Shown: positions 39,812 through 44,924 of the stretch, piece after piece
How the letters are laid out: every line of letters starts with the position of its first letter
How positions within the stretch are numbered: position 1 is the stretch's first letter
Source of the DNA: Actinopolymorpha singaporensis
Lineage (GTDB): Bacteria > Actinomycetota > Actinomycetes > Propionibacteriales > Actinopolymorphaceae
Direction of reading: 5' to 3'
NCBI RefSeq assembly: GCF_900104745.1
Contig: NZ_LT629732.1
Location: 4,823,981 to 4,887,980 of the forward strand
Length of the DNA: 64,000 nucleotides
Program-made: the position numbers and the translations under genes
The notes under the pieces: model-generated
Database searches by the model: none
What the model saw: only the letters and a program-made list of their open reading frames with translations
What the model was told of the DNA's origin: nothing

Positions 39812-39830
39812 GCACTCAGCGTCTGTTCAG
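39812..39830 (+). promoter_or_regulatory. MprA-like box upstream of the response regulator
   Basis: GCACTCAG (39812-39819), CGT, CTGTTCAG (39823-39830): two 8-bp direct repeats in 19 bp. The box ends 22 nt before GTG 39853. CAGACT at 39841-39846 could be a -10 that places transcription start at the GTG. No Shine-Dalgarno at normal spacing is present. Confidence 0.55.
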
Positions 39831-39852
39831 GTGCGCGGGGCAGACTGATCTC

Positions 39853-40533
39853 GTGCGAATTCTCGTGGTGGACGACGACCAGGGCGTCCGTGACTCCCTG
39901 CGGCGCTCGCTGGTCTTCAACGGCTACGACGTCGACCTGGCCGAGAACGGCGAGCAGGCACTCCGCCGGGTCGCTGCGTCCAGCCCCGATGCGGTCGTGC
40001 TGGACGTGATGATGCCCCGCCTGGACGGGATCGCCACCTGCCGCGCGCTTCGCGCCACCGGCAACGACGTGCCCGTTCTCGTCCTCACCGCGAGGGACGC
40101 CGTCGCCGACCGGGTGGCCGGCCTCGACGCCGGCGCCGACGACTACCTCAGCAAGCCGTTCGCGCTGGAGGAACTGCTGGCCCGGCTGCGGGCGCTGATG
40201 CGCCGCTCCGCCCCGGGCGCGGACAGTTCGGTGCTGTCGTACGCCGATCTCACCCTCGACCCGGCGACGCGGGAAGTCCGCCGCGGCGACCGGCAGATCA
40301 GCCTGACCCGCACGGAGTTCTCCCTGCTCGAACTCTTCCTGCGCCATCCCCGGCAGGTGCTGGAGCGGTCCCAGATCCTCGAGGAGGTCTGGGGATTCGA
40401 CTTCCCCACCTCCGCCAACTCCCTCGAGGTCTACGTCGGGTATCTCCGCCGCAAGACCGAGGCCGGTGATGAGCCCCGGCTGCTGCACACCGTGCGTGGC
40501 GTGGGCTACGTACTCCGCGACACCCCACCATGA
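39853..40533 (+). CDS. OmpR/PhoB-type response regulator (MprA-like)
   Basis: 226 residues from GTG 39853. Receiver: acidic pocket VVDDD (5-9), phospho-acceptor Asp51 in [10 protein letters not shown] and Lys101 in DDYLSKPF. Winged helix: [20 protein letters not shown] and [14 protein letters not shown]. The sequence is close in style to mycobacterial MprA, which controls envelope stress genes, including its own operon and the pepD protease. The kinase gene overlaps its stop by ATGA (40530-40533), and the htrA gene with the same kind of operator follows. Expression is probably autoregulated through the box at 39812-39830. Confidence 0.93.
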
Positions 40534-42053
40534 GCCGGAACGACCAGAGAACCCCCTCGGCCACCGGTGGAGGCGCTACCCACGAGGGAGCCGGCGCACG
40601 GACGACGACCCAGAGCCGCCTGCGCTCGGTCAGCCTGCGCAACCGGGTAGGACTGCTGGCTGCGTTCGGGGTGGGGATCATCGTGGTCCTCGTCTCGCTC
40701 GCGGCGTACATCACCGTCCGGGTGTCCCTGCTCGACCAGGTGGACGCCAACCTGCTCGACCGCGCCCGCGCCGCCGCGGCCGGTCCGCTGGCCGACCAGG
40801 GCGTGCTCGCCCGGGTGCCGTCGGAGGCCCTCGGCGCGGCCGACGTCCGGATCGCGCTGCTCAACGCGAACGACAGGTACATCTCCGCGAACGACCACGC
40901 GGGCAACCCGATCGCTCCGCCGCTCGGCGCGGCGGAGCGGGAGGTGGCGAGGGGCGAGGTACCGGAGAGCGTGCGCACCGCGGCGATGGGCGGTGTGAGC
41001 TACCGCGTGGTGGCGGTGCCGGCCGGACGCGAGACGGGCTGGGCGCTCGTTCTCGGCCAGTCACGCGCGGGCACCGAGGACCTCCTGTCCCGGCTGGGCT
41101 TCGTCCTGTTCCTGGTCGGTGCGGGCGGGGTCGCGGTCGCGGCGTACGCCGGTGTCGCCGTCGCCCGGACCGGTCTGCGCCCGGTGGAGCGGCTCACCGC
41201 CGGAGCCGAGCACGTCGCCCGTACCGGTGAGCTGCGCCCCATCCCGGTACAGGGCGACGACGAGCTCGCCCGGCTGGCGCACGCCTTCAACTCGATGCTG
41301 TCCGCGCTGGCCGCGGCCCGCGCCCGCGAGCGCCGGCTGATCGCCGACGCCGGCCACGAGTTGCGTACGCCACTCACCAGCCTGCGGACCAACCTCGACC
41401 TGCTCGCCCAGAGCGAGGCCCGGCCCGGCCTGTCGCGCGAGGATCGGGTCGCACTGCTGGCCGACGTACGCGCCCAGATGGCCGAACTCTCCGTTCTGGT
41501 GGGCGACCTGGTCGAGCTGTCCCGCGAGGACCCGCCCGCCACCGCGCACGCGCCCGTCGAACTCGCGGACGTCGTGGCCACCGCCGCCGAGCGGGTACGC
41601 CGCCGAGCCCCCGCCGTGTGTTTCGACGTCGAGACGCAGCCCTGGACGGTGTTCGGTGATTCCCAGGCTCTCGAGCGGGCGGTGACCAACCTGCTCGACA
41701 ACGCCGCGAAGTGGAGCCCGCCCAACGCCACCGTGACGGTGCGCCTCCGCGGCGGAGTCCTCACCGTGGCCGACGAGGGTCCCGGAATCGCCGAAGTCGA
41801 CGCGCCCCACGTGTTCGAGCGGTTCTACCGGTCCACCGAGGCGCGGACGATGCCGGGATCGGGTCTCGGCCTGGCGATCGTCAAGCAGGCCGCCGACCGG
41901 CACGGGGGTACGGTCAGTGTCGGGCGCAGCCGGCACGGTGGGACGCTGATGACTCTCGTCCTGCCCGGGATGAACGCCCCGGCGCAAGCCCCACCGGTTC
42001 GCCCGAGCCCGCAGCCCCCGCCCCCCGCCGACGAGCCGCGCCGGAACCGCTGA
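40530..42053 (+). CDS. Sensor histidine kinase (MprB-like)
   Basis: 507 residues. ATG 40530 overlaps the regulator stop. Topology: cytoplasmic start, segment 1 ([20 protein letters not shown]), extracytoplasmic sensor (about 60-190), segment 2 ([20 protein letters not shown]), HAMP linker, H box [12 protein letters not shown] with His276, N box [10 protein letters not shown] and G boxes [16 protein letters not shown] and [12 protein letters not shown] Pro-rich C-terminal tail follows. It should autophosphorylate at His276 and pass phosphate to Asp51 of the regulator. The extracytoplasmic part carries no recognised ligand domain. Confidence 0.93.
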
Positions 42054-42080
42054 CCTGATTTCTTCGCCCGCTCACGGGGG

Positions 42081-42099
42081 GCTCTCAGTCCGCTCTCAG
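42081..42099 (+). promoter_or_regulatory. MprA-like box upstream of htrA
   Basis: GCTCTCAG (42081-42088), TCC, GCTCTCAG (42092-42099): two identical 8-bp direct repeats in 19 bp, ending 23 nt before ATG 42123. AAATCT (42110-42115) could be a -10. There is no Shine-Dalgarno before the ATG, so a leaderless transcript is likely. Confidence 0.65.
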
Positions 42100-42122
42100 C
42101 TACCGGGACAAATCTAGTAACC

Positions 42123-43676
42123 ATGAACGAGACGACACCTACGCCGGGTCAGCCGGACCGAACCGACGGGACGGCTCCCGCTTCTTCCGCGCAAGAGCCG
42201 GCTGCCGCGCGCCCGGACGGCCAGCCGGTCTCGTCCACGGGTGGGCGCGAGGACACCACTCCCCTGCCCCCGCCGCACGCCGGCACCCCGACCCAAGGCG
42301 GCGGCTCGCCGTACGGAGAGTCGTTCGCCGGCCACACCGCGTACGGCCCGAACCCATACGGCCAGGCGTACGCCTCCTCACCCCAGCCCGGCTCCTACGC
42401 CGGTTCTTACTCCGGCGGTCACGGCGAGCCGCCCACTCACCACGGCCGGTCGCCCGGAACCAGCTCGGGCCGTCCGCGCCGGCGCTCCGCCGCCGGGGTC
42501 GCCGCCCTCGCCCTCGTCGCCGGACTGGTCGGTGGCGGAGTCGGCGCGGCCGCGACCGACTACCTCGGCCATGACCAGACCAGCAGCTCTTCGACCGCTC
42601 TGGACGAGCAGGCCCCGCGGTCGCAGAACGCCGCCTCGGCCCCGGTGGGGAGTGTGCAGCAGGTGGCCAACAAGGTCCTGCCGAGCGTGGTGTCGATCAC
42701 GATCTCGACCTCCCAGGGCACCGGTAACGGCAGCGGCATCGTCCTGAGCGGCGACGGCCTGATCCTCACCAACAACCACGTCGCCGCCGCGGGTAGCCAG
42801 GGCGGCCAGCTCAGCGTGACGTTCAACGACGGGAAGACCGTGAAGGCGTCCGTCGTCGGCACCGACCCGACCACCGACCTGGCCGTGATCCGGGCCGACC
42901 GCAAGTCGGGCCTGCACCCTGCCCAGCTCGGCAGGTCCTCCGACCTGAACGTGGGCCAGAACGTCGTGGCGATCGGGTCTCCCCTCGGCCTGTCGGGCAC
43001 CGTGACCTCGGGCATCGTCAGCGCGCTGAACCGCCCCGTGCGAAGCAGCGACTCCGGCAGCGACCAGTCGAGCTCCAACACGGTCATCGACGCGATCCAG
43101 ACCGACGCGGCGATCAACCCCGGCAACTCCGGTGGCGCGCTGGTCAACATGGCCGGCCAGGTCGTGGGGATCAACAGCGCGATCGCGACGCTCGGCAGCT
43201 CCATGGGCGGGCAGAGCGGCAACATCGGCGTGGGCTTCGCCATCCCGATCGACGAGGCCAGGCCGATCGCGAAGGAACTCATCGCCAACGGCCGCGCCGA
43301 ACACGCTCAGCTCGGCGTCTCGGTCACCGCCGCCTCCGGGAGCAACGGCGTGAGCAGCGGCGCCTCCCTGCAGGCGGTCAACGCGGGCGGCGCGGCCAGC
43401 ACCGCGGGCCTGCGCAAGGGCGACGTCATCACCAAGGTGGACCAGCGCCAGATCACCGACCCGGACAGCCTGATCGCGGCGGTTCGTTCCTACCGGCCCG
43501 GCGACAAGGTGACGGTGACCTACGTCCGGGGCGGCAGGTCACACACCGCCGATGTGACGTTGGGAACCGACGGCGGCAAGACCCAGCAGCCGCAGCAGAA
43601 CCAGCAACAGGACCAGAACAACCAGAACCCGAACGACGGACAGGGCAACGATCTGCCCTTCCCCTGGTCCCGCTGA
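42123..43676 (+). CDS. HtrA/DegP-family serine protease with PDZ domain (PepD-like)
   Basis: 517 residues from ATG 42123. A cytoplasmic Pro/Gly/Ser-rich region (1-115) precedes one membrane segment (VAALALVAGLVGGGVGAAAT). The extracytoplasmic trypsin-like domain has His219 (LTNNHVAA), Asp252 (TTDLAVIRAD) and Ser336 (NPGNSGGALVN). A PDZ domain (GLRKGDVITKVDQRQITDPD) follows, and the C-terminus is Gln/Asn-rich (QQPQQNQQQDQNNQNPNDG). It degrades or refolds damaged envelope proteins. In mycobacteria the homologous PepD works with MprAB, and the gene order and shared operator here agree with that. Confidence 0.94.
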   Translation: MNETTPTPGQPDRTDGTAPASSAQEPAAARPDGQPVSSTGGREDTTPLPPPHAGTPTQGGGSPYGESFAGHTAYGPNPYGQAYASSPQPGSYAGSYSGGHGEPPTHHGRSPGTSSGRPRRRSAAGVAALALVAGLVGGGVGAAATDYLGHDQTSSSSTALDEQAPRSQNAASAPVGSVQQVANKVLPSVVSITISTSQGTGNGSGIVLSGDGLILTNNHVAAAGSQGGQLSVTFNDGKTVKASVVGTDPTTDLAVIRADRKSGLHPAQLGRSSDLNVGQNVVAIGSPLGLSGTVTSGIVSALNRPVRSSDSGSDQSSSNTVIDAIQTDAAINPGNSGGALVNMAGQVVGINSAIATLGSSMGGQSGNIGVGFAIPIDEARPIAKELIANGRAEHAQLGVSVTAASGSNGVSSGASLQAVNAGGAASTAGLRKGDVITKVDQRQITDPDSLIAAVRSYRPGDKVTVTYVRGGRSHTADVTLGTDGGKTQQPQQNQQQDQNNQNPNDGQGNDLPFPWSR

Positions 43677-43718: not shown

Positions 43719-44924
43719 TCACTCCCTTCCGGAGCGACTCAGCGGTGTGCCCCCGGGCCCGGGACGGCCGGACGTGCCTACGGCTTCGGCGACGGAGCCG
43801 TAGCCGGCTGCCCGGGCTCGCCGGGCTATCCCCCGGTGGACCTTCCGCGGCCAGGCCGGCCCGCCGTAGATGAAACCGGTGTACGCCTGCACCAGCGTCG
43901 CGCCCGCACGGATGCGTTCCCACGCGTCGTCGGCGTTCTCGATGCCACCCGCCGCCACCAGCACCAGCCGGTCGCCCACCCGCGCGTGCAGGCGACGGAT
44001 CACCTCCAGGGCGCGCGCCTTCAGCGGCGCGCCGGACAGCCCGCCCGCTCCCAGCTCGGCGACCTCCCCCGCGTCGGTGCGCAGGCCGTCCCGGCCGATG
44101 GTGGTGTTGGTGGCAATGATGCCGTCCAGTCCGAGGTCGAGCGCCAGGTCGGCCACCGCGTCCACGTCGGCGTCGCTCAGATCGGGCGCGATCTTCACCA
44201 GCAGCGGGACCCGCCTGGCCGTCGGCGGCCTGGCGTGATCGGCACGATCGCGGTGGTCGACCCGCTCGGTCCGGGCCGGCTCGTCCAGGGTCTGGCGTAC
44301 GGCGGCGAGCAGGGGACGCAGCCGCTCCACCGCCTGCAGATCGCGTAGGCCGGGGGTGTTGGGGGAGCTGACGTTGACCACCAGGTAGTCGGCGTACGGC
44401 GCCAGCCGCCGGGCGCTGGCGACGTAGTCGCCGACGGCCCCGGCCTCGGGGACGACCTTCGTCTTGCCGATGTTGACCCCGACGTACGCCGTCCGGCCGC
44501 GGGCCTGGCCGCCTTCCACCCGCCGGCGCAGCCGGTCCGCCGCGGCCGCCGCTCCGTGGTTGTTGAAGCCCATCCGGTTCACCAGGGCCCGGTCGGCCGG
44601 CAGCCGGAACATCCGCGGGCGCGGGTTGCCGGGCTGGGCCTGGGCGGTGATCGTGCCGACCTCGACGTACGCGAAACCCAGAGCGGTCAGCCCGTCGACG
44701 CCCTCCGCGTCCTTGTCGAACCCCGCAGCGAGGCCCAGCGGCCCCGGCAGGTCCATCCCGAGCGCCCGGACCCGCAGCACCGGGTCCGTCGGCCCGAGCA
44801 CCCGCCGCATCCCGGCGCCCAGTCCGGGCACGGCACCGGCGAACCGGATGGCCGCGAACGCCAGCCGGTGAGCGGTCTCGGCCGGGATGTGCTGGAGCAC
44901 CCTTCTGTACAGGAGTTCGTACAT
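43719..44924 (-). CDS. pyrD: Dihydroorotate dehydrogenase (quinone), class 2
   Basis: 401 residues from ATG 44924. The N-terminal membrane-associated helix region ([20 protein letters not shown]) marks class 2. FMN-binding and catalytic parts: [51 protein letters not shown] (catalytic Ser), [29 protein letters not shown] and [15 protein letters not shown]. It is a pyrimidine biosynthesis enzyme that reduces quinone. A His/Arg-rich insertion near residue 220 ([20 protein letters not shown]) is not common and looks like an expanded loop. Divergent from ligB, with 84 bp between starts. Confidence 0.95.

Follow-up and report, generated by a model that had tools for sequence, protein, structure and literature searches.

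A predicted autoregulated, leaderless MprAB-PepD-type envelope stress switch in Actinopolymorpha singaporensis

A three-gene block of A. singaporensis encoding a response regulator, a sensor histidine kinase and an HtrA-type protease very probably forms an autoregulated, class-II-activated, leaderless envelope (extracytoplasmic) stress switch of the MprAB-PepD type. Two promoters, one before the regulator gene and one before htrA, carry a direct-repeat box at a fixed distance from a predicted -10 hexamer and from the start codon, and this arrangement recurs in related genomes. The block lies in the 64-kb window, by which we mean the whole stretch of DNA that was analysed, bases 4823981-4887980 of the single-contig 6.40-Mb genome.

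The regulator-kinase-protease block and its two boxes

The genes and predicted elements, in window coordinates, are as follows.

39812-39830, plus strand: MprA-type box of the regulator gene, GCACTCAG-CGT-CTGTTCAG, conserved core 39815-39830, compared with relatives
39841-39846, plus strand: predicted -10 hexamer CAGACT, 10 nt after the box and 6 nt before the GTG, from the layout
39853-40533, plus strand: OmpR/PhoB-family response regulator, MprA counterpart, 226 aa, GTG start
40530-42053, plus strand: sensor histidine kinase, MprB counterpart, 507 aa, with HAMP, HisKA and HATPase_c domains
42081-42099, plus strand: MprA-type box of htrA, GCTCTCAG-TCC-GCTCTCAG, conserved core 42084-42099, compared with relatives
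42110-42115, plus strand: predicted -10 hexamer AAATCT, 10 nt after the box and 7 nt before the ATG
42123-43676, plus strand: HtrA-type serine protease, PepD counterpart, 517 aa, with trypsin-like and PDZ domains
43719-44924, opposite strand: pyrD-like gene downstream of htrA, named from its translation

The regulator carries the Pfam domains Response_reg and Trans_reg_C, and its gene overlaps that of the kinase by 4 nt. The kinase stop and the htrA start are separated by 69 nt (window 42054-42122), so that the box and promoter of htrA occupy most of this gap. The initial annotation had described two 8-bp direct repeats within 19 bp that stop 22 and 23 nt short of the start codons, and the sequence confirms them at both genes: the regulator box ends 22 nt before the GTG at 39853 and its two 8-mers are identical at 4 of 8 positions (TCAG), while the htrA box ends 23 nt before the ATG at 42123 and its 8-mers are identical at all 8 positions.

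The shared core, YTCAG-N6-YTCAG, matches twice in the window, precisely at the regulator and htrA boxes; in 100 dinucleotide shuffles of the window it occurred on average 0.32 times, at most once and never twice. With one mismatch allowed the core is not enriched in the window (5 found versus 8.13 expected), limiting the significance to the exact core, and because a generic repeat finder run on the window returned neither 8-mer pair the boxes rest on pattern and conservation. Across the whole 6.40-Mb genome there are 25 exact cores versus 8 for the backward-read pattern. The core is no commoner than this backward control in six of seven other genomes scanned alongside, and is thus a weak predictor when taken alone.

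Conservation was assessed in loci retrieved by searching with the kinase protein in 97 relatives (30 best taken), in 246 class genomes of which 135 match at E <= 1e-75 (30 best plus 40 chosen regions taken) and in a named genome collection; the sample is biased and contains 8 loci from the organism's own family. The 177 cluster loci comprise L006-L142 and L173-L212, the pattern-hit loci L143-L172 being left out. The regulator count covers the 146 of the 177 loci with a match of at least 60% identity and at least 150 nt upstream (of the remaining 31, 2 have no regulator match, 5 have a match starting after residue 6, 23 fall under 60% identity and 1 has less than 150 nt upstream). The htrA count covers 76 loci, the other 101 having no HtrA match within reach.

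The exact core lies within 150 nt before the regulator in 71/146 loci (backward control 0/146), and in 70 of these 71 an in-frame RTG stands 22 nt (49 loci) or 23 nt (21 loci) after the box. A relaxed form of the box precedes the regulator in 102/146 loci, 92 of them with the start at 22 or 23 nt (control 0/146), a count that places the Kribbella locus L061 at 23 nt though a later start is equally likely there. The relaxed box also precedes htrA in 58/76 loci (control 2/76), and in 48 of the 76 an in-frame RTG lies at a distance of 22 or 23 nt from it. The relaxed pattern misses near-boxes visible by eye, for example those with the first halves TTAAG or CTAAG (L013; L175, L182, L186, L188). 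The equal distance to the start codon noted in the window therefore recurs in related genomes, and where the initial annotation had looked to unconserved boxes in genomes of the same gene order as grounds for abandoning its reading, the opposite is found at both the regulator and the htrA loci.

Genera with the leaderless regulator layout include Lentzea, Saccharothrix, Kutzneria, Saccharopolyspora, Pseudonocardia, Actinokineospora, Actinosynnema, Phytoactinopolyspora, Catenulispora and Nocardioides. Actinokineospora and Actinosynnema are each represented by a further locus as well, and these two further loci do not have the layout and fall outside the MprA group in the tree described below. 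In Nocardioides-type genomes the regulator frame extends upstream and offers an in-frame start 22-23 nt from the box, and a Thermoleophilia MAG has the layout at htrA and lacks it at its regulator. No relaxed box is present in 44/146 regulator loci and 18/76 htrA loci, which counts against the switch. Seventeen of the 44 belong to the Streptomyces-like and other families f20-f22, the box being absent in 7/7 Streptomyces-like (f22) loci and, on the plus strand, in 7/7 Streptosporangiaceae-like (f21) loci. These two family labels, like Mycobacteriaceae-like (f7) and Kribbella-type (f3), are putative and draw on gene content and on resemblance to named loci; f23 corresponds to Jiangellaceae and f4 to Nocardioidaceae.

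Two side observations concern individual loci. Five f21 loci (L194, L195, L196, L197, L200) carry a box on the minus strand, the only such cases among the 146, about 72-89 nt before the regulator and with a further CTGAG some 22 bp away as judged by eye. Locus L058 (Streptomyces sp. SID13031) has a Kribbella-type promoter and may be misnamed.

Kinship with the mycobacterial system and the identity of the binder

The window holds a membrane kinase linked to the regulator and, downstream, an HtrA protease of the PepD type. The best PDB match of this protease is PepD (Rv0983), with 313 bits versus 229 for HtrA1, and PepD is likewise matched (356 bits) by the protease, present as a partial protein, of L188, a Mycobacteriaceae-like locus of the same gene order. 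When the L188 regulator is searched in the A. singaporensis genome the window regulator comes first (348 bits, 73%) and the next match scores 264 bits. A quick tree, rooted for drawing only, was built from the 131 regulators left of 166 after removal of near copies. In it all 62 rows with box and -10 lie inside one group of 76, with an SH-aLRT support of 87 where the tool's own mark is 95. This MprA group contains the window's family, Nocardioidaceae, Jiangellaceae, Pseudonocardiaceae and the Mycobacteriaceae-like family; two A. singaporensis paralogues and the Streptomyces-like family fall outside it. Thirteen of the 76 rows in the group have no box, and the recognition helix fails to separate box-bearing from box-less regulators cleanly; both points count against the switch.

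Judged by gene order (regulator, kinase, HtrA protease), the orthologous regulator and the PepD-type protease, the block is the counterpart of mycobacterial mprA-mprB-pepD. In mycobacteria this order continues with moaB2 downstream of pepD (PMC11656743), a gene that is not found downstream of the window htrA, where the opposite-strand pyrD-like gene lies instead. Because moaB2 reflects the synteny of mycobacteria and not function, its absence lowers the claim to the same operon and leaves the MprAB type untouched.

The MprA box was reportedly described by He and Zahrt in 2005 as a 19-bp element made of two 8-bp direct repeats with loose conservation. Both window genes carry repeats that answer to this description, and their half-site is the same as that in the Mycobacteriaceae-like loci. 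The proposed link to MprA and pepD is thus supported, at the level of sequence, by the orthology of regulator and protease and by the shared half-site. The initial annotation had further taken the 8+3+8 arrangement in 19 bp as a mark of MprA. The CTCAG-type half-site does prove specific, but the geometry occurs also with Corynebacterium MtrA and PhoR and is generic for OmpR/PhoB regulators, so that the assignment to MprA draws on the half-site letters and on orthology.

In an improbable though not trivial alternative, the boxes are bound mainly by another OmpR/PhoB-family regulator, such as the 60%-identical paralogue at G000:C1:2384797, and the block is the output of a different system. Eleven places in the genome, including the window, match a mycobacterial regulator at E <= 1e-40, and direct repeats with an 11-bp period are reported as common in the OmpR/PhoB family (PMC3353115, PMC6754071). 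A similar repeat at DUF347 genes moreover appears to belong to another regulator, and a box is therefore no proof of the window regulator. Against this, the box precedes the regulator gene itself, with all of the box-and-hexamer rows confined to the single MprA group, and no such box is seen by eye in the 200 nt before the match of the paralogue.

Promoter layout and the proposed switch

The hexamer NANNNT starts exactly 10 nt after the box in 97/99 distinct regulator promoters and in 55/55 distinct htrA promoters with a box, compared with 0-11 of 99 and 0-5 of 55, respectively, at 13 other offsets tested. Distinct promoters were counted because some loci duplicate (e.g. L022/L055, L036/L122), and where a locus held several boxes the one with an RTG at 22/23 nt was chosen, the hexamer playing no part. 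In relatives the RTG usually follows 6-7 nt after the hexamer. In the window the hexamer opens 12 nt ahead of the regulator start and 13 nt ahead of the htrA start, and so shows the published leaderless signature, a TANNNT about 12 bp before the start codon (PMC3160421). The box-linked NANNNT resembles the M. tuberculosis -10, TANNNT, for which no -35 motif was detected (PMC3898074). A different hexamer, TCTAGT, was considered as the htrA -10 and dropped, since the comparison with relatives sets the spacing at 10 nt.

The box and the hexamer keep their spacing even where the start codon has shifted, which is good evidence that the hexamer is a real -10. Ten Kribbella-type loci have a TANNNT 10 nt after the regulator box and an aligned start further down behind purine-rich sequence (the Shine-Dalgarno test applied to these ten was looser than that applied to the 70 leaderless promoters). 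Likewise, ten Mycobacteriaceae-like pepD boxes are followed at 10 nt by CAAGGT, CAAGCT, CACCCT, CACGCT or CATCGT, with the start further down. As had been stated for the window, no Shine-Dalgarno-like 5-mer is apparent by eye before the regulator or htrA start, and one was found in only 2/70 leaderless relatives of the regulator promoter. From this layout the regulator and htrA mRNAs are predicted to be leaderless, a reading that holds up in relatives in both the 10-nt hexamer spacing and the scarcity of Shine-Dalgarno-like 5-mers.

In the proposed switch, envelope stress would cause the kinase to phosphorylate the regulator, two subunits of which would occupy, in head-to-tail order, half-sites spaced by 11 bp. 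The half-sites span roughly positions -41 to -23 relative to the start codon and would replace the -35 element. Once bound, the regulator would assist RNA polymerase, probably carrying the principal sigma factor, at a weak NANNNT -10 located exactly 10 nt downstream, a case of class II activation. Transcription would begin from, or adjoining, the first base of the GTG or ATG to give leaderless mRNAs; the regulator-kinase operon, being under its own control, would provide positive feedback, and the protease would be the output. Autoregulation predicts a box before the regulator gene itself, as is seen over the MprA group. A review places the M. tuberculosis mprAB promoter under SigE control (PMC10027907), which a principal-sigma reading fails to explain and which counts against the proposal.

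Very unlikely, in our view, is a variant in which the boxes are real binding sites and the regulator represses, or in which transcripts start further upstream and the -10 goes unused. A site over the -35 is able to repress, and in M. tuberculosis phosphorylated MprA is reported to turn sigE P1 off; the same source has it turn on P2, a promoter transcribed by SigE polymerase into a leaderless mRNA (PMC10027907). However, the spacing to a poor -10 is fixed at 10 nt and is kept when the start codon moves, as class II activation requires and for which reason it is favoured here over repression, and autoregulation by C. glutamicum MprAB is positive (PMC12113857). Chance similarity, or merely shared ancestry of flanking DNA, might be entertained from a single genome, with its two short matches and unenriched one-mismatch versions, but can be set aside almost entirely because, over many families, the box, the 10-nt gap and the A and T of the -10 stay almost constant amid varying spacer letters and flanks.

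Targets, reach and comparison with known systems

Three of the 25 exact boxes in the genome have a NANNNT at 9-11 nt, in each case at 10 nt; the other 22 have none at 9, 10 or 11 nt. The three full-layout promoters, all of leaderless layout, are those of the regulator, htrA and the following gene outside the window.

G000:C1:4739384-4740127 (L231 585-1328), minus strand: M50B-type membrane peptidase gene, 248 aa, box-N10-TACGGT-N6-ATG

The genome-wide box scan that had been suggested for finding further envelope stress genes thus yields a third full promoter but, by the strict criterion, no broad envelope-gene set, and by exact boxes the predicted regulon of this genome is very small. The MprAB system is also linked to control of sigE and sigB, and among these full-layout promoters none has a sigma-factor gene behind it. 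Over 8 genomes of the family the composite pattern has 35 matches versus 2 for the backward control.

The M50B box is present in 4/57 loci, namely this genome and its three closest congeners, with differing spacer letters, but was not seen in the remaining two congeners (L329, L330) or in any of the more distant loci examined. Because the whole box-to-start stretch is nearly identical in the four, its conservation is weak evidence, and the M50B-type peptidase gene is best regarded as a lineage-specific candidate target, confined to this genus; as a general target it was rejected on the same count. In one of the 177 loci, a Nocardioidaceae locus (L020 2898-3482), an M50B gene lies directly after the kinase and before the HtrA match.

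Protease control as the core output gains support from three congeners in which extra HtrA genes carry the same promoter (two in G002, one each in G003 and G004). The locus scan gave no near-box at the HtrA paralogues of A. singaporensis itself (L002-L005). A DUF347 membrane protein was rejected as a regulon member: the composite occurs in G005 and one Mycobacteriaceae-like genome, and 12/14 loci have no box. By eye, the DUF347 genes (L357-L360) have a different 11-bp-period repeat upstream, of the TTCAG-N6-GTCAG kind, perhaps the site of another OmpR-type regulator. Composite matches in single genomes (PAP2 protein L259, zinc-ribbon L269, LmeA-like L284, HAMP protein L293 and L261) are not claimed as targets.

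A broader reading is more tentative and could well be wrong: that YTCAG-N6-YTCAG-N10-NANNNT-N6/7-RTG is kept as a rigid unit at both promoters across several actinobacterial orders (at htrA also in the Thermoleophilia MAG), that leaderlessness is itself a selected part of the switch, and that the M50B-type peptidase was recruited in this genus by gaining the unit. A literature search of limited depth, covering sources in part, found no description of the fixed box-(-10)-start layout or of its spread. The layout cuts the 25 boxes of this genome to 3 and could therefore sharpen target prediction in many soil and industrial actinobacteria. In some lineages the start codon of one of the two genes has shifted away with the box-to-(-10) spacing retained, and such cases provide a natural test of why stress genes keep leaderless messages.

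Among other known systems, C. glutamicum MtrA and PhoR share the 8-bp direct repeats with a 3-bp linker in 19 bp and differ in their half-site letters, RTAACAAT and CCTGTGAA (PMC3353115), while PhoP and PolR recognise an 11-nt repeat containing TCA (PMC6754071). Given these similarities of geometry and repeat, the box alone does not name its binder. The Streptomyces secretion stress systems CutRS and CssRS resemble the block as two-component systems controlling htrA-family genes. The CutR site is reported as TAWATAAA, placed at -62 from the transcription start at htrA3 (PMC12802291); inspection by eye of the stretches upstream of the window genes revealed no TAWATAAA, and identity with CutRS was set aside on this ground.

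C. glutamicum MprAB (CgtSR2) is a two-component system that controls itself and htrA, with MprA binding the htrA promoter (PMC12113857). Its published motif, TKTTAAGAAM, differs from CTCAG-N6-CTCAG (PMC12113857), and this counts against the switch. As a separate observation, the Mycobacteriaceae-like loci L180 and L191 have the second half-site CTTAC, which resembles the reverse complement of that motif.

The closest comparison is with mycobacteria, where this type of system, with its autoregulation and its MprA box, is already known. In M. tuberculosis, pepD is reported to be directly regulated by MprAB (PMC3062566). In the Mycobacteriaceae-like loci a box with leaderless layout stands at the regulator in 15/19 and a box with -10 at pepD in 10/18. 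The two differ in that pepD there starts further down, behind a sequence that looks Shine-Dalgarno-like by eye, whereas htrA in the window is leaderless by its layout. Taken with the relatives surveyed here, this comparison suggests that self-regulation of the stress system in the mycobacterial manner is probably old and tied to a strict promoter layout.
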